Virus record (IMG/VR): IMGVR_UViG_3300033143_001219 | Location: 17,106-81,105 of that record | Source: a virus | Length of the DNA: 64,000 nucleotides | Reading direction: 5' to 3' (one strand) | Part shown: positions 2,711 through 63,312 of the stretch, piece by piece | Numbering within the stretch: the stretch's first letter is position 1 | How the letters are laid out: each line of letters starts with the position of its first letter | Translations under genes and position numbers: made by a program | The notes under the pieces: model-generated | The model's input: the letters and a program-made list of their open reading frames with translations, nothing else | What the model was told of the DNA's origin: nothing | Database searches by the model: none

Positions 2711-4895
2711 TATTGCAGTAGTAGAGAAGTACCCATCAAATTATAATTACGAGGCATTACTACCTTTTGATTTTGATAGATTATCTCTAGTAGATGAAAG
2801 AATGGATAAAGTACTAAAACGAGATATTACTTTAGATATTGACCTAGTTAAGGAAGAATATGAATATATAATACTTATTGGAAAGGAACCCAGTAAGTTT
2901 GTAGGTAACATATCTTCTGTCACAGAATATCAAGGATACTTGTTAGATGATAAGTTCTTAGCTTTAATGAACCCCGTAGCGGTAGCTTTGCGACCCTCAC
3001 TAAAAACAGCCTTTGATAAGTCTGTTAATGATATAATTATAACTATAACTAAGGGTGAACTAGTACTACAGAATGTAGATGTTACACCACTTGAAACTGA
3101 AAGTGATATATTAAAGTACTTAGATGAAGTTATTGAGTACAATCCTGAGTTTATTGCAATGGATACAGAAACCTCAGCATTATACCCTAGAGATGGGTAT
3201 GTACTAGGTATATCTATGACACACAGAGATAATCAAGGTGTATACATAGATAGTATGGTTGTATCGGATAAAGTAGTTGAAAAGCTACAATATATATGTA
3301 ATAAATTTAAAATAGTATTTCATAATGCTAAGTTTGATATCAAGATGCTTGCATATCATTTTGGATTAGTATTCCCAGACTGGGATGATACAATGCTTCT
3401 ACATTTTGATTTAGATGAAAATAGTCCACATGGATTAAAACATCTAGCTATTAAGTATACTAACTTAGGTGATTATGATGCTGAGTTAAACAAATTTAAA
3501 ATACAGTATTGTAAAGATCATAATATTAAAAGAGCAGACTTTACTTATGATTTAATACCTTTCCATATTATGTTTCCTTATGCAGCTAAAGATACAACCG
3601 CTACTTTTGAACTATATCAAAAGTTTATGCCACTTATTGCTAAAAATACTAGACTTAAGTATGTATACGATGATTTATTAGTAAAGGGTACTAAGTTTCT
3701 AATAGATGTTGAAGAGACTGGGATTCCTATCAATAAGGAACTTATAGAGTTTCATATTATAAGAGTAAGTGATGAAATAAAAGTATTAACAGCTTCATTA
3801 TATGAACATGATGAAATAAAGAAAGTAGAAGAAATTAAGAAGAAATTATTTAATGTTAATAGTACACATGATTTAAGAGCACTATTCTTTGATATATTAG
3901 ATATGCCTTATACTAAGCTGACTGATACAGGGCAGCCAAGTACAGATGCAGAAGTGTTAGAAGAACTATCTACTACACACCCTATTGCTAATATAATTAA
4001 TAAAATTAAGAAGCTTAAAAAGATTAAATCTACCTACCTAGAAAAGATGTTACAAGGTTGTGACATGGATGGTAGACTAAGAACAGGATTTAACTTACAT
4101 ATAACTACATCTGGGAGACTAAGTTCATCTGGAAAGATTAATGCTCAACAATTACCTAGAAAGGATAAGACACCTAAACTTTGTATAGAAGCTAAGGAAG
4201 GTTTCAGTATTGTGAGTCAGGATTTGAAAACAGCGGAAATGTATATTGCCGCAGTATTATCTGGAGATAAAAACTTACAGAAAGTATTTATAGATAAGCA
4301 AGATTATCACGGAACAATGGCAGTTATGAAGTTTGGGTTAACTTGTAAACCAAATGATGTTGCAAAGTTATTTCCAGATTTAAGACAAGCAGCTAAAACT
4401 GTTTCGTTTGAAATTCTATACAAACTAAATTATAGAGAGCCAGCATTAGAGAAGTTTAAAAGGCTTAAGCGCTGGTTACAAGAACAAGAAGAGTGGATTA
4501 AAGATAAAGGATATATCTATTCAGCCTTCGGTAGAAAACGCAGAGTATCTGACGTATTCTCACCAAATAGAAAAGAAGCACAACATCAAGTAAGAAGTGC
4601 AATTAACTTCTTAGTACAAAGCGTATCTAGTGATGTTAATCTATTGGCAGGAATTGAAATGCAAGAATGGATTGTAAAGAATGGATATACTGAACAAATG
4701 AAAATATTTGGTTTAGTACATGACTCAATCTTAGCAGAAGTTAAAAATGAATATATTGATATGTATTTAGAAAAACTGGCTTACTTTACCCAGATGGATA
4801 GAGGAGTTTCAATTCCAAACAGTCCTATAGGATTAGATATCGAGATTGGCAGTAGTTACGCATTTACTGATGAGAATTACAAATATGCAGCCTAA
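2700..4895 (+). CDS. DNA polymerase, family A, with 3'-5' exonuclease domain
   Basis: A 731-residue replicative polymerase. The proofreading domain has all three exonuclease motifs: MDTETS with D155 and E157, HNAKFD, and YAAKDTTATF. The polymerase domain has motif A around D508 (SQDLKTAEM), motif B from R562 to Y574 with R562 and K566 conserved, and motif C H674-D675-S676. Family A enzymes usually have DYSQIE-type motif A, an NFGxxYG ending in motif B, and HDE in motif C, so all three differ here while the metal-binding aspartates D508 and D675 remain. There is no sign of a separate 5'-3' exonuclease domain; that activity is encoded separately at 11,050-11,874, as in T5. The ATG at 2700 overlaps the primase end. 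Confidence 0.93.
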   Translation: MANNIAVVEKYPSNYNYEALLPFDFDRLSLVDERMDKVLKRDITLDIDLVKEEYEYIILIGKEPSKFVGNISSVTEYQGYLLDDKFLALMNPVAVALRPSLKTAFDKSVNDIIITITKGELVLQNVDVTPLETESDILKYLDEVIEYNPEFIAMDTETSALYPRDGYVLGISMTHRDNQGVYIDSMVVSDKVVEKLQYICNKFKIVFHNAKFDIKMLAYHFGLVFPDWDDTMLLHFDLDENSPHGLKHLAIKYTNLGDYDAELNKFKIQYCKDHNIKRADFTYDLIPFHIMFPYAAKDTTATFELYQKFMPLIAKNTRLKYVYDDLLVKGTKFLIDVEETGIPINKELIEFHIIRVSDEIKVLTASLYEHDEIKKVEEIKKKLFNVNSTHDLRALFFDILDMPYTKLTDTGQPSTDAEVLEELSTTHPIANIINKIKKLKKIKSTYLEKMLQGCDMDGRLRTGFNLHITTSGRLSSSGKINAQQLPRKDKTPKLCIEAKEGFSIVSQDLKTAEMYIAAVLSGDKNLQKVFIDKQDYHGTMAVMKFGLTCKPNDVAKLFPDLRQAAKTVSFEILYKLNYREPALEKFKRLKRWLQEQEEWIKDKGYIYSAFGRKRRVSDVFSPNRKEAQHQVRSAINFLVQSVSSDVNLLAGIEMQEWIVKNGYTEQMKIFGLVHDSILAEVKNEYIDMYLEKLAYFTQMDRGVSIPNSPIGLDIEIGSSYAFTDENYKYAA

Positions 4896-8789: not shown

Positions 8790-10605
8790 CTGGTTCTCAT
8801 ATGGTGAAGATAACTATATAGATTTAGAAGAGACTCCATTAATGCAGATATCAGGTAAAAACGGTAGTGGTAAAAGTTCTATACCTTTAATAATAGAAGA
8901 AGTATTATATGGTAAAAATCATATAGGTAAGAGAAAGCAAACTTTAGTTAATAGATATATAAAAAATCCTATCCTTACAGCAGAATTAAACTTTTCAAGG
9001 GATGAGGTAGATTATAAAGTGAAAATTTCTCGAAAAAGCACCGTGAAAATACAATTTTTTCGTGAAAATGAGGATTTATCATCACATACATCAACCAATA
9101 CGTTCAAGTCAATACAAGAGGTTTTAGGTATTGATTTCAAAGTATTCGTTCAACTTATATACCAAAGTTCAAAAATTAACTTAGAGTTCTTAGAGGCTAC
9201 AGATACTAATAGGAAGAAATTCCTTATTAGCTTATTTAAGCTACATAAATACTTAGAGATACATGAAGTATTTAAGAAAGCTGAGAGTGGTATTAATAAT
9301 GAAGTATTAATACTATCAAGTAAGTTAAGTACTATTGAAGCTTGGATAACTAAGCATATTAATAAAGAGTTAATACATATAGATACCAAAGAACTACCAG
9401 AAGTTAATAAGGATGATATAGATAAATTAGCAGTATTTAAAGTTGAATTATTAAATATTAAAGATACCAATACAAAAATAAATAAAAATAATGAATATAA
9501 AAACTTATTAAAAACATTAGATTTAAGTGCTCTTTCTTATGTAGGTGAAGTACCAAATGATAAGGATAAGCATGAAGAGTACAGAAGATTAGGTCAACAT
9601 AAACTGACTGAAATTAAAACTAAAATTAAAACACATAAAAATAGTATTGATAAGGTAAAGAGATTTGAAGACAGGTGTCCTACTTGTGCTCAAGATATAA
9701 CAGAAGATTTTAAAAATAAACTGATACATACTGATCAACGTAATATATCAGACCTAGAGACTGACGCCTCTATAGTTAATAAAGCTATAAAAGATGTTGA
9801 AGATAAGTTAAAAAATTATCAGCAAATAGCTAATAAGGTAAAAGAACGTGAAAGGGTATCAGATGATTTCTCTACACTACAAAATTTAGTTGATAATTCA
9901 ATATTAAGTGATATAATGGTTGAGGGTGATATACTAAAAAATATAACTGCGCTAGAGACTAAACTTAGAAATATTACTGAAGATATTAAACGCATATCTA
10001 CTTTTAATAACAAAGCTGAAAGTAATAATTCGACTGTTAAAGTTATAACTGCACAGCTAGAAGAGTACAAATTACAAGCAGAAGATGTACGTGAACAATT
10101 ATATGAAATAGAAGAACAGAAAAATAAATTAGGCATACTTAAAAAGGCTTTTAGCACAAATGGACTGTTGAATTATAAATTGGATTATTTAATAAAAGAC
10201 TTAGAGTTACAAATTAACTCTTATTTACAAGAATTATCTTCAGGGAAATTCCAAATAGTATTTATATTACAGGAAGAAAAACTTAATATAGAGATATTGG
10301 ACGAAGGTGCATCTATAACTATTGAAGAACTATCAGCAGGTGAACTAGCACGTATCAATACAGCAACACTGTTAGCTATACGGAAGTTAATGTCTGCAAT
10401 ATCTTCAACAAAGCTTAATATCTTATTTTTAGATGAGGTAATGGGAGTTCTAGATGAAGAAGGCAAAGAAAAGCTAATAGAAGTATTACTGAAAGAGAAG
10501 GACTTAAATACGTTTTTAGTTAGTCATGAGTATTCACATCCATTAATCCCTAAGATAAATATAATAAAGGAAAATAAAATAAGTAGGATAGATAATGGTA
10601 GATAG
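8758..10605 (+). CDS. SbcC/gp46-like ATPase subunit (Rad50 family)
   Basis: A 615-residue SMC-like ATPase. Walker A is GKNGSGKSS beginning at G33; the zinc-hook CPTC is at C307-C310 in the middle of long coiled-coil arms; the ABC signature LSAGELARINTA and Walker B ILFLDEVMGVLDEEG are in the C-terminal quarter. With the upstream nuclease it forms the end-processing complex (T4 gp46/47, T5 D13/D12). The coiled coils are short compared with cellular Rad50, as is normal for phage versions. The 5' end overlaps the nuclease gene by 32 bases, favouring balanced expression. Confidence 0.92.
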   Translation: MIILKNLTWSNWFSYGEDNYIDLEETPLMQISGKNGSGKSSIPLIIEEVLYGKNHIGKRKQTLVNRYIKNPILTAELNFSRDEVDYKVKISRKSTVKIQFFRENEDLSSHTSTNTFKSIQEVLGIDFKVFVQLIYQSSKINLEFLEATDTNRKKFLISLFKLHKYLEIHEVFKKAESGINNEVLILSSKLSTIEAWITKHINKELIHIDTKELPEVNKDDIDKLAVFKVELLNIKDTNTKINKNNEYKNLLKTLDLSALSYVGEVPNDKDKHEEYRRLGQHKLTEIKTKIKTHKNSIDKVKRFEDRCPTCAQDITEDFKNKLIHTDQRNISDLETDASIVNKAIKDVEDKLKNYQQIANKVKERERVSDDFSTLQNLVDNSILSDIMVEGDILKNITALETKLRNITEDIKRISTFNNKAESNNSTVKVITAQLEEYKLQAEDVREQLYEIEEQKNKLGILKKAFSTNGLLNYKLDYLIKDLELQINSYLQELSSGKFQIVFILQEEKLNIEILDEGASITIEELSAGELARINTATLLAIRKLMSAISSTKLNILFLDEVMGVLDEEGKEKLIEVLLKEKDLNTFLVSHEYSHPLIPKINIIKENKISRIDNGR

Positions 10606-60078: not shown

Positions 60079-60191
60079 ATTGGACTAGTAGTTATCAACT
60101 TATGTATGGTTATAGATTCTATAGGTGTTGTGATTGTGGGAAATTAAAAGAATTTAATGTATATAATCCGCCAATTAACTACGACTCCTGA
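60042..60191 (+). CDS. 49-residue cysteine-containing protein
   Basis: Starts at ATG 60042 behind GGGAGGTTTAAGAC and overlaps the preceding gene by 37 bases. A basic, aromatic sequence (FKIKRFFCLHLNW, YGYRFYRCCDCGK) with CCDC could be a half zinc knuckle. Last gene of the operon. Confidence 0.5.
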   Translation: MFKIKRFFCLHLNWTSSYQLMYGYRFYRCCDCGKLKEFNVYNPPINYDS

Positions 60192-60252
60192 TAGGCACCT
60201 TGTAGCGAAACTCAGTTTCTTTGGATACCGTACGTGCGGAGGGGTGTAGAGA

Positions 60253-60287
60253 GGGAGGGTTAGACTGAGTCTAATAACCGCCCCCTA
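60253..60287. terminator. Structured intergenic hairpin at a convergent gene end
   Basis: TTAGAC-TGA-GTCTAA forms the top of a stem extended by GGGAGGG on one side and CCGCCCCC on the other with a small bulge; TCTCCTTTTATT follows. A second hairpin (GAAACT-C-AGTTTC) lies at 60,207-60,219. Together they probably end the small-gene operon and its convergent neighbour. Confidence 0.55.
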
Positions 60288-60313
60288 CCATAGTCTCCTT
60301 TTATTGTCAACCC

Positions 60314-60986: not shown

Positions 60987-61039
60987 CCACCTCAGTGAAA
61001 ATAAACCATTTATTTATGGTCAATTATTGACCACATCTA

Positions 61040-61075
61040 TATTAGCATATTAGAATATTATAATATGCTTGCGCC
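61040..61075. repeat. AT-palindrome repeat, copy 1, ending TTGCGCC
   Basis: ATATTAGCATATTAGAATAT followed by TATAATATGC and TTGCGCC. Built from TTAGNATAT and ATATNCTAA half-sites that recur throughout 61,040-62,755. The TGCGCC ends at 61,075. Confidence 0.8.
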
Positions 61076-61099
61076 AATTTTACCATACCAACCCCCTAC

Positions 61100-61129
61100 T
61101 TGTCAATACCTATATATGGGTATTGACAA
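61100..61129. repeat. Inverted repeat TTGTCAATACC / GGTATTGACAA
   Basis: Perfect 11-base arms separated by TATATATG. The 18 bases from CCCCTACTTGTCAATACC are repeated exactly at 62,603-62,620. Each arm contains TTGACA reading outward, so it can be a pair of -35-like sites or a repressor operator. Confidence 0.8.
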
Positions 61130-61136
61130 ATAAACT

Positions 61137-61223
61137 TGGCACGAGGATTGCATGCCACCTATGCAAGACGCATGCCACATTAGAATATTATAATATACTA
61201 CTAGACAAGCAAGATGCGTGCCA
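61137..61223. promoter_or_regulatory. Three sigma-54-like -24/-12 elements
   Basis: Plus strand 61,137-61,152 TGGCACG-N4-TTGCA; minus strand 61,177-61,162 TGGCATG-N4-TTGCA; minus strand 61,223-61,208 TGGCACG-N4-TTGCT. All keep the invariant GG-N10-GC spacing of RpoN promoters. Two point left towards the 60,926 gene and one points right. They may instead be a shared protein-binding site. Confidence 0.45.
61178..61204. repeat. AT-palindrome repeat, copy 2
   Basis: ATTAGAATATTATAATATAC followed by TACTAG, closely matching copy 1 and the copies at 62,450 and 62,670 but lacking TGCGCC. It lies between two of the sigma-54-like elements. Confidence 0.75.
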
Positions 61224-61351
61224 ACAGATGCTAAGTCATTGATTTATAAGGCTATCTTTGTGTGCCACGAACTCACCCTAACATAGGCAATCATAAAGGG
61301 TACTCCAAGTGGGCTGAGACAGGCTGACAAGAGCTTAGGATTGATAAAAAC

Positions 61352-61399
61352 TTGGCACGGTTTGTGAATGAGAACGATTCGCATCAAGAATCGTGCCAA
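61352..61399. repeat. Nested inverted repeat TTGGCACG ... CGTGCCAA
   Basis: TTGGCACG (61,352-61,359) and CGTGCCAA (61,392-61,399) face each other, and within them CGATTC-GCATCAA-GAATCG is a second inverted repeat. The right part on the minus strand, TTGGCACGATTCTTGATG, is nearly identical to plus-strand 62,782-62,799. Confidence 0.6.
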
Positions 61400-61400
61400 C

Positions 61401-61559
61401 AGCATATGATTATATTATTATATTCTAATATAGATCTTCATTAGAATATTATTATATTAGACTATTCTAATATGCTTGGTATATTAGAATATGGGTATAT
61501 TAGAATATGCTAATATTGCGCCGTACCCTATATAAGCAAATGCTAATATACTAATATAC
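61401..61559. repeat. AT-palindrome array, block with at least four units
   Basis: Successive units of TATATTCTAATATAG, ATTAGAATATTATTATATTA, CTATTCTAATATGC, TATATTAGAATATG (twice) and GCTAATATTGCGCC (GCGCC at 61,518-61,522), then GCTAATATACTAATATACC. It ends 17 bases before the promoter of the tiny-gene operon, so a role in its control is likely. Confidence 0.75.
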
Positions 61560-61576
61560 CGTTCGTCGGATAGGTG

Positions 61577-61604
61577 TTGACACTGGGGGCTAATTTGCTA
61601 TAAT
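61577..61604 (+). promoter_or_regulatory. Sigma-70-type promoter for the tiny membrane-peptide operon
   Basis: TTGACA (61,577-61,582), 16 bases, TATAAT (61,599-61,604). The leader TACTACATTGAAACGGGAGA matches the one behind the 62,202 promoter and supplies a GGGAG ribosome-binding site. Confidence 0.8.
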
Positions 61605-61630
61605 TACTACATTGAAACGGGAGATACAAA

Positions 61631-61720
61631 ATGTTAAACAAATTATTTATTCTTATTATTTTAGTCGGCGTTCCTTTATGGTTTGGCCTTTCTTCATTTG
61701 CTCACTTAGCGGGGTTATAA
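61631..61720 (+). CDS. 29-residue membrane peptide
   Basis: Starts MLNKLFILIILVGVPLWFGL and ends AHLAGL: a single hydrophobic helix with a basic N-terminus. It follows the promoter and the AAACGGGAGA leader with ribosome-binding site GGGAG. Peptides of this type act on membranes or membrane proteins. Too short for standard gene callers; signals support it. Confidence 0.65.
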   Translation: MLNKLFILIILVGVPLWFGLSSFAHLAGL

Positions 61721-61723
61721 AAA

Positions 61724-61870
61724 ATGCTTAATTTAATTACACTAAACGCTCTTATCTATACGCTGTTGAGCTTTCAAGCTAACCTATACGGCATGGATAG
61801 ATTAACCGTACTTTTTGTGTGTGTTACCATGTGTTTTGTTATTCCTATGGTTTTGATGGAGGAAAAATGA
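61724..61870 (+). CDS. 48-residue membrane peptide
   Basis: Begins four bases after the previous stop. Two hydrophobic segments (LITLNALIYTLLSFQANLYG and LTVLFVCVTMCFVIPMVLM) separated by MDR, ending MEEK. No Shine-Dalgarno is obvious; translation may be coupled to the upstream peptide. Function unknown. Confidence 0.6.
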   Translation: MLNLITLNALIYTLLSFQANLYGMDRLTVLFVCVTMCFVIPMVLMEEK

Positions 61871-61956
61871 AATACTTACATTTACTATCAGCATTACTAA
61901 CGGGTTCAGCCTTTGCCATTATCACTTATTTAATTTGTTTATCTAATCAATTTTAA
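61867..61956 (+). CDS. 29-residue membrane peptide
   Basis: Starts on an ATGA overlap after GGAGGAAAA. Single hydrophobic helix (YLHLLSALLTGSAFAIITYL) with a polar end. Third member of a three-peptide operon closed by a terminator, so all three are probably made together. Confidence 0.6.
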   Translation: MKYLHLLSALLTGSAFAIITYLICLSNQF

Positions 61957-61983
61957 TAACCTTATAAAACCCTCCCGTTTTAG

Positions 61984-62006
61984 CCCTACGAAATGTAGGG
62001 TTTTTT
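61984..62006 (+). terminator. Terminator of the tiny-peptide operon
   Basis: CCCTAC-GAAAT-GTAGGG followed by six T. Directly before it lies CTCCCGTTT (61,972-61,980), complementary to the leader AAACGGGAG (61,615-61,623) of the same transcript. It is followed by AATTTCGGGTATATTAGAAT, a junction repeated after the 62,417 terminator. Confidence 0.85.
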
Positions 62007-62014
62007 AATTTCGG

Positions 62015-62139
62015 GTATATTAGAATATTCTAATATTCTAATATTGCGCCTTTCGCGATATAAGCATATTATAATATACTAATATGCTCTACCCCAGGTT
62101 CATTAGAATATTAGCATATGCTAATATGCGCCGATTATA
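62015..62139. repeat. AT-palindrome array, three units, two with TGCGCC
   Basis: Contains the perfect 14-base palindromes TTAGAATATTCTAA (62,020-62,033) and TTAGCATATGCTAA (62,111-62,124), units ending in GCGCC at 62,046-62,050 and 62,128-62,132, and between them GCATATTATAATATACTAAT. The second is followed by GATTATACACC, as at 62,581. Confidence 0.8.
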
Positions 62140-62179
62140 CACCTCACAAATACTTTCTGTCAATACCCACAAAGAGATA

Positions 62180-62207
62180 TATACAAATGCTTGCCATGCG
62201 CTATAAT
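62180..62207 (+). promoter_or_regulatory. Promoter for the 57-residue protein
   Basis: TATAAT at 62,202-62,207 with a weak -35 (TATACA) 16 bases upstream. The leader TTACAACTTAAACGGGAGAT repeats that of the 61,599 promoter. Upstream CTGTCAATACCCACAAAGAG is a relative of the inverted-repeat block at 62,610. Confidence 0.6.
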
Positions 62208-62236
62208 TATTACAACTTAAACGGGAGATTCAAAAA

Positions 62237-62410
62237 ATGCATACTAAAGACACGAAACGGGTTTTGATCACTGGTCGCGATTCTGCGGGCGAAATTGTGA
62301 ATTTGCTTGAAATCAAACGCACGTCGTCTGTCGGTTTTCGGATTCACAAAAAAATGCATATTAATTCGATGCGGAATTATTGCGCGACGGTTACTTGCGA
62401 AAAACTTTAA
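62237..62410 (+). CDS. 57-residue basic protein
   Basis: Sequence starts MHTKDTKRVLITGRDSAGEI and continues with a basic beta-type segment (KRTSSVGFRIHKKMHINS) and YCATVTCEKL. It has its own promoter, leader, GGGAG ribosome-binding site and terminator, so it is a complete one-gene cassette. Its codons are clearly richer in G and C than those of the late genes. Possible host-acting or nucleic-acid-binding protein; family not recognised. Confidence 0.65.
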   Translation: MHTKDTKRVLITGRDSAGEIVNLLEIKRTSSVGFRIHKKMHINSMRNYCATVTCEKL

Positions 62411-62416
62411 AAGGTA

Positions 62417-62440
62417 AAACCCGCGAAAGTGGGTTTTTTT
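62417..62440 (+). terminator. Terminator of the one-gene cassette
   Basis: AAACCC-GCGAAAGT-GGGTTT followed by further T. The sequence after it, AATTTCGGGTATATTAGAAT, is the same as that after the terminator at 61,984. Confidence 0.85.
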
Positions 62441-62448
62441 AATTTCGG

Positions 62449-62590
62449 GTATATTAGAATATTATAATATACTAATTTGCGCCGATCCGGTAAGACGCTA
62501 CTCTAATTATAACACAAAAAATCCATGCTGTCAACACTTATTTTCAGGTCGAATATTAGAATATTAGCATATGCTAATTTGCGCCGATTA
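62449..62590. repeat. AT-palindrome units with TGCGCCGAT
   Basis: Two units: TATATTAGAATATTATAATA with CTAATTTGCGCCGAT (GCGCC 62,479-62,483) and GAATATTAGAATATTAGCAT with ATGCTAATTTGCGCCGATTATA (GCGCC 62,581-62,585). The second holds TTAGCATATGCTAA at 62,564-62,577. The 68 bases between them, with TGCTGTCAACACTT, show no gene. Confidence 0.8.
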
Positions 62591-62609
62591 TATCACACCC
62601 ATCCCCTAC

Positions 62610-62639
62610 TTGTCAATACCCATTAAGAGATATTGACAA
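62610..62639. repeat. Inverted repeat TTGTCAATA / TATTGACAA, second copy
   Basis: Nine-base arms around CCCATTAAGAGA. The block is a diverged copy of 61,093-61,152, including the sigma-54-like element that follows at the same distance. Confidence 0.75.
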
Positions 62640-62645
62640 ATTAGT

Positions 62646-62661
62646 TGGCACGAAGTTTGCA
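62646..62661 (+). promoter_or_regulatory. Sigma-54-like element TGGCACG-N4-TTGCA
   Basis: Exact match to the RpoN -24/-12 consensus core with correct GG-N10-GC spacing, reading towards the GNAT-like gene 225 bases downstream. Its context repeats that of the element at 61,137. Confidence 0.45.
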
Positions 62662-62669
62662 CCGACGCG

Positions 62670-62755
62670 AATATTAGAATATTATAATATACTAATATAC
62701 TAATATAGGTCTGGAGTATATTAGAATACAGTTATATTCTAATATTAGTAAGTTA
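62670..62755. repeat. AT-palindrome array, last block
   Basis: GAATATTAGAATATTATAAT, ACTAATATACTAATATAG, then TATATTAGAATAC and TATATTCTAATATTAG. No TGCGCC end. Together with the following inverted repeat this is upstream of the GNAT-like gene. Confidence 0.75.
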
Positions 62756-62781
62756 GTATATCGTTATAAACTAATGGAGAA

Positions 62782-62816
62782 TTGGCACGATTCTTGGTGG
62801 GCAAAAAACGTGCCAA
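62782..62816. promoter_or_regulatory. Inverted TTGGCACG pair with sigma-54-like spacing
   Basis: TTGGCACG (62,782-62,789) and CGTGCCAA (62,809-62,816) with 19 bases between. Minus strand 62,815-62,800 reads TGGCACG-N4-TTGCC (GG-N10-GC intact); plus strand 62,783-62,798 reads TGGCACG-N4-TTGGT. It may be an operator 70 bases before the next gene. A possible -10 (TAAAAT, 62,851-62,856) follows. Confidence 0.45.
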
Positions 62817-62886: not shown

Positions 62887-63312
62887 ATGAAAAGCACAAA
62901 ATTTTTGGACACAATCGCGCTATGTAATAGTGAAGGTTTTGGTGGCGTGGATTATTACAGCAAAGGCGAAAATATAGCTGAGTTTCTTAATGAATATGAA
63001 ATAGAAACGGCTGGAATTGTAACAACAAAAGTGAAGGGCAAAATTGCGGGCTTCGTTTTATGGTATATAGAAAATAATGCTATTAATATATGTAGACGCG
63101 CAGTATATGAAAAATATCAGGGTTTAGGGTTAGGCGTTAAACTTACTAAACAGACTATGAAAATCGGGTTATCATTTGGCGCGCATTTTGAGACATACGC
63201 TAGTAACTGGAATTTAGCTAGTATAAATAGTTCTATAAAATGCGGTTGTTATATTACTAAAATAGGGAAGGATTATACATGCCTTTCAAATAAAAAACGG
63301 GTTAAAAAATGA
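62887..63312 (+). CDS. GNAT-family acetyltransferase-like protein
   Basis: A 141-residue protein. IAGFVLWYIENNAINICRRAVYEKYQGLGLGVKLTK has the strand-loop-helix of GNAT enzymes with the YQGLGLG acetyl-CoA pyrophosphate loop (Q/R-x-x-G-x-G), and FETYASNWNLASINSSIKCGC matches the later N-x-x-S helix and beta-bulge. It could acetylate a host protein or small molecule. AAGGAAAAAAAGGGG precedes the start. It has no visible partner genes; a neighbouring membrane protein overlaps its end. Confidence 0.75.
   Translation: MKSTKFLDTIALCNSEGFGGVDYYSKGENIAEFLNEYEIETAGIVTTKVKGKIAGFVLWYIENNAINICRRAVYEKYQGLGLGVKLTKQTMKIGLSFGAHFETYASNWNLASINSSIKCGCYITKIGKDYTCLSNKKRVKK

Follow-up and report, generated by a model that had tools for sequence, protein, structure and literature searches.

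The window analyzed here is a stretch of 64,000 nucleotides (bases 17106-81105 of the linear IMG/VR virus record IMGVR_UViG_3300033143_001219, which has a length of about 81 kb and no end repeats). It contains an array of AT-rich palindromic repeats that spans 61.04-62.77 kb. On balance, we consider this array to be probably an early control region in the genome of a T5-like phage, in which strong promoters are each fused to a predicted host-regulator site. Candidate host-regulator sites show an extreme concentration in this one non-coding region, as judged by shuffled and permuted controls. What was observed directly comprises the sequences with their statistics, the neighboring genes by which the sites are identified, and the swapping of operators after a conserved promoter.

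The array had been proposed in a sequence-only reading of the window, and it is real. There are 28 exact half-sites (TTAGNATA/TATNCTAA) in 61,000-62,800 (15.6/kb), and the rest of the window (61 kb) has 23 (0.38/kb). A scatter of repeats across coding DNA, which that reading had named as an argument against itself, is not what is seen. The exact 14-mer TTAGNATATNCTAA has four copies in the 81-kb record, every one of them in the array (61500, 62020, 62111 and 62564), and a reversed control pattern has zero occurrences in the same record. When up to one mismatch is allowed, the array has 13 such sites, compared to a mean of 0.07 in dinucleotide shuffles; among 300 column-permuted palindromes, the maximum is 8, and none attains 13. 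The perfect palindromes that had been described are present (TTAGAATATTCTAA at 62020; TTAGCATATGCTAA at 62111 and 62564). The half-sites keep a strict 8-bp register (forward-forward 8 or 16, reverse-reverse 8, forward-reverse 6, 14 or 22). One such register is the pattern expected of protein dimers bound side by side.

The six GCGCC tags (61071, 61518, 62046, 62128, 62479 and 62581) have one orientation throughout, as had been claimed. That several continue with GATTATA was slightly generous: two do, and a third reads AATTTTA. On the other strand, GCGCC...GATTATA reads TATAATC-GGCGC, in which a -10 box is followed by a GC-rich discriminator. Both belong to leftward sigma-70 promoters whose -35 and -10 boxes are perfect or near-perfect. 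Three of the six tags touch a -10 box, one is about 22 bp away, and two (61518 and 62046) are without a consensus promoter. The repeating unit has the order plus-strand promoter, tiny gene, terminator, operator and leftward promoter. Two junctions reported to be alike (61992-62042 and 62426-62476; terminator, then AATTTCGGGTATATTAGAATATT) are 90% identical over 51 nt. The proposed modular character of the region holds as well, since its units are repeated and since related phages have the promoter-plus-operator module with other operators in it (see below). The 8-bp register, the reading of GCGCC...GATTATA as a reverse-strand -10 box and discriminator, and a set of sigma-54 sites go beyond what the sequence-only reading had noticed.

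These sigma-54 type sites (TTGGCACG-N4-TTGC) lie between the repeats. There are seven, four of which are exact (61136+, 61209-, 62645+ and 62801-), where shuffles predict 0.02 and none of 300 permuted motifs attains seven. They have the TGGCAC-N5-TTGC pattern, in which the distance between the GG and GC doublets is constant, and the profile pooled across T5-like phages is TTGGCACGATTCTTGC. Two convergent pairs are among the sites of the array. A single Fur-box-like sequence is found at about 61366-61384. The features of the array are listed below (operators and promoters are predicted from sequence; a strand is given where one applies).

61042-61066: ArsR-type operator unit, two forward half-sites and an imperfect reverse one, just downstream of the leftward promoter 61106-61077
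61071-61106, minus strand: leftward sigma-70 promoter TTGACA-N18-TAAAAT with GGCGC discriminator
61136-61151, plus strand: sigma-54 site TTGGCACG-N4-TTGC, exact
61163-61178, minus strand: sigma-54-like site, 2 mismatches
61180-61201: ArsR-type operator unit
61209-61224, minus strand: sigma-54 site, exact
61352-61399: convergent sigma-54-like pair (61352+, 2 mismatches; 61384-, 1 mismatch) flanking the Fur-box-like AATGAGAACGATTCGCATC
61407-61470: two ArsR-type operator units
61484-61554: ArsR-type operator units, including the exact 61500-61513; GGCGC tag at 61518
61577-61604, plus strand: sigma-70 promoter TTGACA-N16-TATAAT of the tiny-gene cassette
61631-61956, plus strand: tiny-gene cassette, with an open reading frame (ORF) of 48 amino acids (61724-61870) called by program and shorter flanking frames seen by eye
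61982-62002, plus strand: terminator-like hairpin and T run
62020-62041: ArsR-type operator, exact palindrome TTAGAATATTCTAA and an extra half-site; GGCGC tag at 62046
62061-62082: ArsR-type operator unit, imperfect
62103-62124: ArsR-type operator TTAGAATATTAGCATATGCTAA
62128-62163, minus strand: leftward sigma-70 promoter TTGACA-N18-TATAAT, then C and GGCGC
62180-62207, plus strand: sigma-70 promoter-like TATACA-N16-TATAAT for the 57-amino-acid ORF
62237-62410, plus strand: ORF of 57 amino acids, without Pfam match
62416-62437, plus strand: terminator-like hairpin
62454-62475: ArsR-type operator unit; GGCGC tag at 62479
62506-62534, minus strand: leftward sigma-70 promoter, 12/12 consensus, N17
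62556-62577: ArsR-type operator TTAGAATATTAGCATATGCTAA
62581-62616, minus strand: leftward sigma-70 promoter, 12/12 consensus, N18, then C and GGCGC
62645-62660, plus strand: sigma-54 site, exact
62674-62766: three ArsR-type operator units in a run (62674-62703, 62721-62742 and 62753-62766)
62782-62816: convergent sigma-54 pair (62782+, 1 mismatch; 62801-, exact), 70 bp upstream of a GNAT gene (62887-63312)

The binder of the palindromes was sought by a scan of cellular genomes (one genome per species, 84,980 species) with the 22-bp pattern TTAGNATATTAGNATATNCTAA. This retrieved 52 loci, which span bacteria and archaea, and in 14 of them an ArsR-family gene starts within 250 bp downstream. The flanks (383 kb) contain 24 ArsR-like ORFs, and the Pfam domain HTH_5 was confirmed for five ArsR proteins beside genomic sites. 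Other immediate neighbors are Sulf_transp (sulfur transport), DsrE-like and metallo-beta-lactamase proteins and, by reading of the sequence, TolC and membrane-fusion efflux proteins. Matches within genes of AT-rich genomes are probably due to chance. Because the repeat occurs directly upstream of ArsR-family, sulfur and efflux genes, it is most likely an ArsR-type operator. The genomic ArsR proteins have an SQHL-type recognition helix in common, and their sensor cysteines differ: a two-cysteine pattern was read at loci L159 and L160 (the latter from Amphritea atlantica), a metalloid-type pattern at L132, L136 and L152, and none at L117 and L153. The identification therefore stops at "ArsR type, BigR/SqrR-like in Gammaproteobacteria". 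A persulfide-sensing ArsR cluster that comprises HlyU, BigR, SqrR and YgaV, and the role of its recognition helix, have been described (PMC10509353). Operators of such ArsR-family repressors resemble the units of the array in being AT-rich palindromes; they precede arsR-type, sulfur and efflux genes, as the 22-bp site does in the cellular genomes. E. coli YgaV and Vibrio cholerae HlyU were not used as proof, since their sites match the 14-mer weakly (2 mismatches in the ygaV promoter, at least 4 in the HlyU operator). While bacterial ArsR operators are single and precede the regulated gene, the phage region has about a dozen and no repressor gene: HTH_5 has no match in the phage record or in 20 other array-bearing or related records, and a custom profile built from 13 genomic ArsR proteins has none among the ORFs of the viral loci. 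With no ArsR gene recognized in the phage, the host is the probable source of the binder.

By its predicted proteins, the phage is T5-like. Its large terminase has 48% identity to Demerecviridae, and 31 proteins of the window or contig match T5, with an order largely as in T5 from D2/D3 to the small terminase subunit. A DNA-level search of the array region against annotated phages gave no match, and an Rfam search of the region gave no family. There are 18 transfer RNA (tRNA) genes at the left end of the phage record. Given the terminase side of the array and the tRNA genes at the other end of the record, the array is placed between the terminase and the tRNA block (across the contig ends), the place of the long terminal repeat in T5. 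In a relative (G001, locus L010; about 65-90% protein identity), the contig starts with this promoter-operator unit too, and there are about 20 kb more between the unit and the genes that open the window's own record. As a side observation, an element in the window at 60180-60290 (CCGTACGTGCGGAGGGG...GGTTAGACTGAGTCTAATAACCGCCCCC) has partial copies upstream of the terminase in L039, L056, L199 and L200, and is possibly a packaging or genome-end signal; a single scan with the conserved sequence near 60.2 kb found only one other contig. A putative transfer-messenger RNA (tmRNA) was called in the phage record (L005 10415-10889, tag ANDNDFAMAA), which may be spurious.

In the clade, the promoter module TTGACA-N17/18-TATAAT-C-GGCGC is conserved, and the downstream site varies. 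ArsR operators hold this place in L010, in L059 and three times in the window; L199 has a Fur box there, and L217, L056 and L046 have a sigma-54 site. A panel of known regulator motifs (consensus sequences from general knowledge) was applied to the corresponding region of named T5-like phages. In Vibrio T5-like phages, this region contains 14 sigma-54 sites in 13.7 kb, 15 DnaA boxes and 4 LexA boxes. None of 300 permuted motifs matches the counts for Fur, LexA and DnaA in enteric phages, or for LexA, DnaA and sigma-54 in Vibrio phages. The panel found nothing in two structural-gene regions, and no panel site was found in Proteus phage M4H10_20. ArgR matches in T5-like phages were dropped because most overlap LexA-type boxes. 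An independent sample consisted of 105 distinct modules from IMG/VR, chosen by the promoter alone, in which five sites were tested. A Fur box occurs within 80 bp downstream in 6 of these (0.0 in shuffles, none upstream), DnaA boxes downstream in 4 (also 4 upstream), and a sigma-54 site downstream in 2; some modules carry palindromes of other, unmatched sequence. A search of the literature on T5 for Fur or LexA sites, and on phages for sigma-54 sites, retrieved nothing relevant, with most subscription papers outside its reach.

The sigma-54 sites of the array resemble bacterial sigma-54 (RpoN) promoters (TTGGCACG-N4-TTGC(A/T), with a T-rich N4), but they often form tight convergent pairs, of which we know no example from bacterial promoters. 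Convergent pairs were found in 36 other viral contigs (G+C 34-63%), most often with a length of 35-36 bp, and eight of these loci carry T5-like terminases. Tandem arrays of such pairs occur in viral contigs of varied G+C, namely L200 (three pairs in succession, 3660-3780), L201 (ten sites within 1.5 kb) and L218. A hairpin reading of the inverted pairs was rejected, since only 55 of 176 N4 spacer positions are alike in the two arms, which is about chance.

ArsR arrays are also present in two podovirus-like records: G007 encodes T7-like structural proteins, and G005 has 12 DnaA boxes. Perfect or near-perfect DnaA boxes, 12-13 in number, stand beside ArsR-type operators in L016 (G005; 31.9-32.2 kb) and L027 (2.3-2.8 kb). 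In the related T5-like phage with locus L046 (1-4300), eleven GTCAAN4TTGAC palindromes (0 expected) replace the ArsR operators; this palindrome and the T5 motif TGTGCRAATCCGACA are candidate protein sites. An ORF at the end of a T7-like contig (L186 18813-19892) reads like an AlkB-type alkane monooxygenase.

How might the array work? The sigma-70 promoters with their GGCGC discriminator would be fused, just downstream of the start site, to host-regulator sites, and free-standing sigma-54 (-24/-12) sites and further operators would occupy the gaps. The palindromes would be operators of a host-encoded ArsR-family repressor with an SQHL-type helix (BigR/SqrR-like in Gammaproteobacteria), and a unit of two or three half-sites, set in the 8-bp register, would accommodate several dimers. 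With the repressor at the transcription start, the leftward promoter would be blocked; when the host regulator leaves the DNA (upon sulfur stress for sensors of the sulfide/persulfide type), the promoter would fire. Sigma-54 polymerase would wait as a closed complex for a host activator. Either protein, bound within the first ~40 bases downstream, could keep a strong promoter closed or host-responsive. Binding, repression and a benefit to the phage, whose early transcription would be tied to the state of the host, are what we infer from these predictions.

Several points weigh against such an early control region. The leftward promoters reach almost no gene, and only the one at 61106 reads toward 60926-60314, so that it is hard to point to a gene product that would be repressed. 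Most of the 105 sampled modules are without any of the five tested sites, and an ArsR site was found in none. The ArsR proteins beside genomic sites are of mixed sensor types, and binding of the repressor is a prediction. At 35-37 bp in most cases, the convergent sigma-54 pairs are too tight for two polymerases simultaneously. Finally, the Fur block in T5 lies between converging gene ends, unlike pure operators.

This last point concerns the annotated T5 injection stop signal (AY543070, 9140-10149), in which Fur, LexA and DnaA sites appear to form a block. It has 7 Fur-box matches (0.0 expected), which correspond to about five separate sites because some overlapping matches count one stretch twice. 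One DnaA box is present, as is a LexA box (TACTGTATAAATATACAGTA at 9409) that has a single mismatch. The LexA box and the Fur block (L169, which is T5 AY543070; 9409-9715) are both absent from the annotation of that record. BF23, EscoHU1, SE24, Klebsiella phage Sealy and Yersinia phage phiR2-01 are similar to T5 in site content. As the block is located between the 3' ends of convergent genes, its sites are not placed like gene operators. Nine copies of TGTGCRAATCCGAC are found in or near the stop signal (L169 9752-10340 and 12153). The stop signal resembles the array in several respects: it belongs to a T5-like phage, has the same neighborhood, and consists of non-coding repeats and palindromes with a set of host-regulator sites. 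It differs in that its regulators are Fur, LexA and DnaA, its sites are not tied to promoters, and A1/A2 and the annotated terminal repeat belong to T5.

The array may have a role in the control of DNA entry. As a counterpart of the T5 stop signal, it would carry high-affinity sites on which host proteins pause the incoming DNA until they are removed. We regard this as possible, though rather improbable. The position of the array at the site of the T5 terminal repeat fits, as do the non-operator sites in T5 itself, and a few sites could block one DNA molecule, while they would hardly titrate abundant regulators. Host components have been proposed to block second-step transfer at the T5 stop signal (PMC13250531). 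However, the sites of the array are tied to promoters, and the linear record shows no end repeats. A1 is the T5 gene required for second-step transfer. Its family (phrog_1745) has no match in the record or four relatives (G000, G001, G017, G019 and G020), one of which includes the 20 kb that separate the array from the genes on the tRNA side; this search on incomplete records lacked a positive control and was equally silent in its control genomes, so that the absence is provisional. Operator and entry-block functions could coexist. With a similarly low probability, the first-entering or early DNA of T5-like phages, including the T5 stop signal, is in general a composite array of sites for Fur, LexA, DnaA, ArsR-type regulators and sigma-54, suited to the host, and their occupation by host proteins gates both entry and early transcription.

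Still less probable, in our view, is that the array acts as a decoy, with its sites sequestering sigma-54 polymerase and repressors of the host; this would de-repress host regulons or disturb host transcription. The sites are multi-copy and near-perfect in consensus, several promoters and sigma-54 pairs have no gene ahead, and the tandem arrays in L200 and L201 would suit this role. Yet about a dozen sites per genome are few compared to typical regulator numbers before phage replication, and the operators keep a constant position behind the conserved promoter, for which a decoy has no need. Operators for a phage-encoded repressor (immunity or early shut-off) are quite unlikely. The operators are swapped among related phages, as immunity specificities are, but neither the 81 kb nor the relatives show an ArsR-type gene, several of the swapped sites match the well-known host regulators Fur, DnaA and sigma-54, and the gene content is that of a lytic, T5-like phage. 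An iteron-type replication origin, which had also been suggested, has very little probability: the repeats are AT-rich, phased and non-coding, and DnaA-box arrays stand beside the same repeats in L016 and L027, but the array itself has no DnaA box and no GC-skew switch confined to it, its repeats are interleaved with promoters and genes, and identical sites serve as operators across bacteria.

With the early control region as the preferred interpretation, known systems can be compared. T4-type phages have early promoter stem-loop elements, which are repeated promoter cassettes between small genes, and the array had been likened to these. Judged by description, the likeness is not supported: the phage is T5-like, and in place of stem-loops the array has loop-free palindromes in 8-bp register, which are predicted operators of protein type. 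The nearest known case is that of several pili- or flagellotropic phages of Alphaproteobacteria, in which CtrA sites crowd into a single intergenic region, with binding and regulation established by experiment (Mascolo et al. 2022, PMC9437464). There, as in the array, sites for a host regulator are concentrated in one non-coding region. The CtrA phages use one regulator, whereas the T5-like phages, as judged from sequence alone, have exchangeable sites of ArsR/BigR type, sigma-54, Fur, LexA and DnaA, together with a conserved sigma-70 module. What appears to be new is the probable identity of the repeat, the way in which predicted host-regulator sites are mixed and exchanged after a single promoter module, and the interpretation of the T5 stop signal as a Fur/LexA/DnaA block. 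We found no paper that states these points; the primary papers on the T5 stop signal were outside the search, so that a prior mention is possible.

If the T5 stop signal is such a block, with ArsR-type and sigma-54 sites as its counterparts in environmental relatives, the matter becomes a question for genetics, through deletion strains of E. coli K-12. If entry and early transcription are indeed gated by composite arrays, the phage would read the iron, sulfur, DNA-damage and nitrogen state of the host in the first minutes of infection. The CtrA case would be extended, as a single conserved promoter module seems to accept interchangeable host operators in several kinds of lytic phage. The early genes of these viruses, or the entry of their DNA, may be wired to the host's own regulators.

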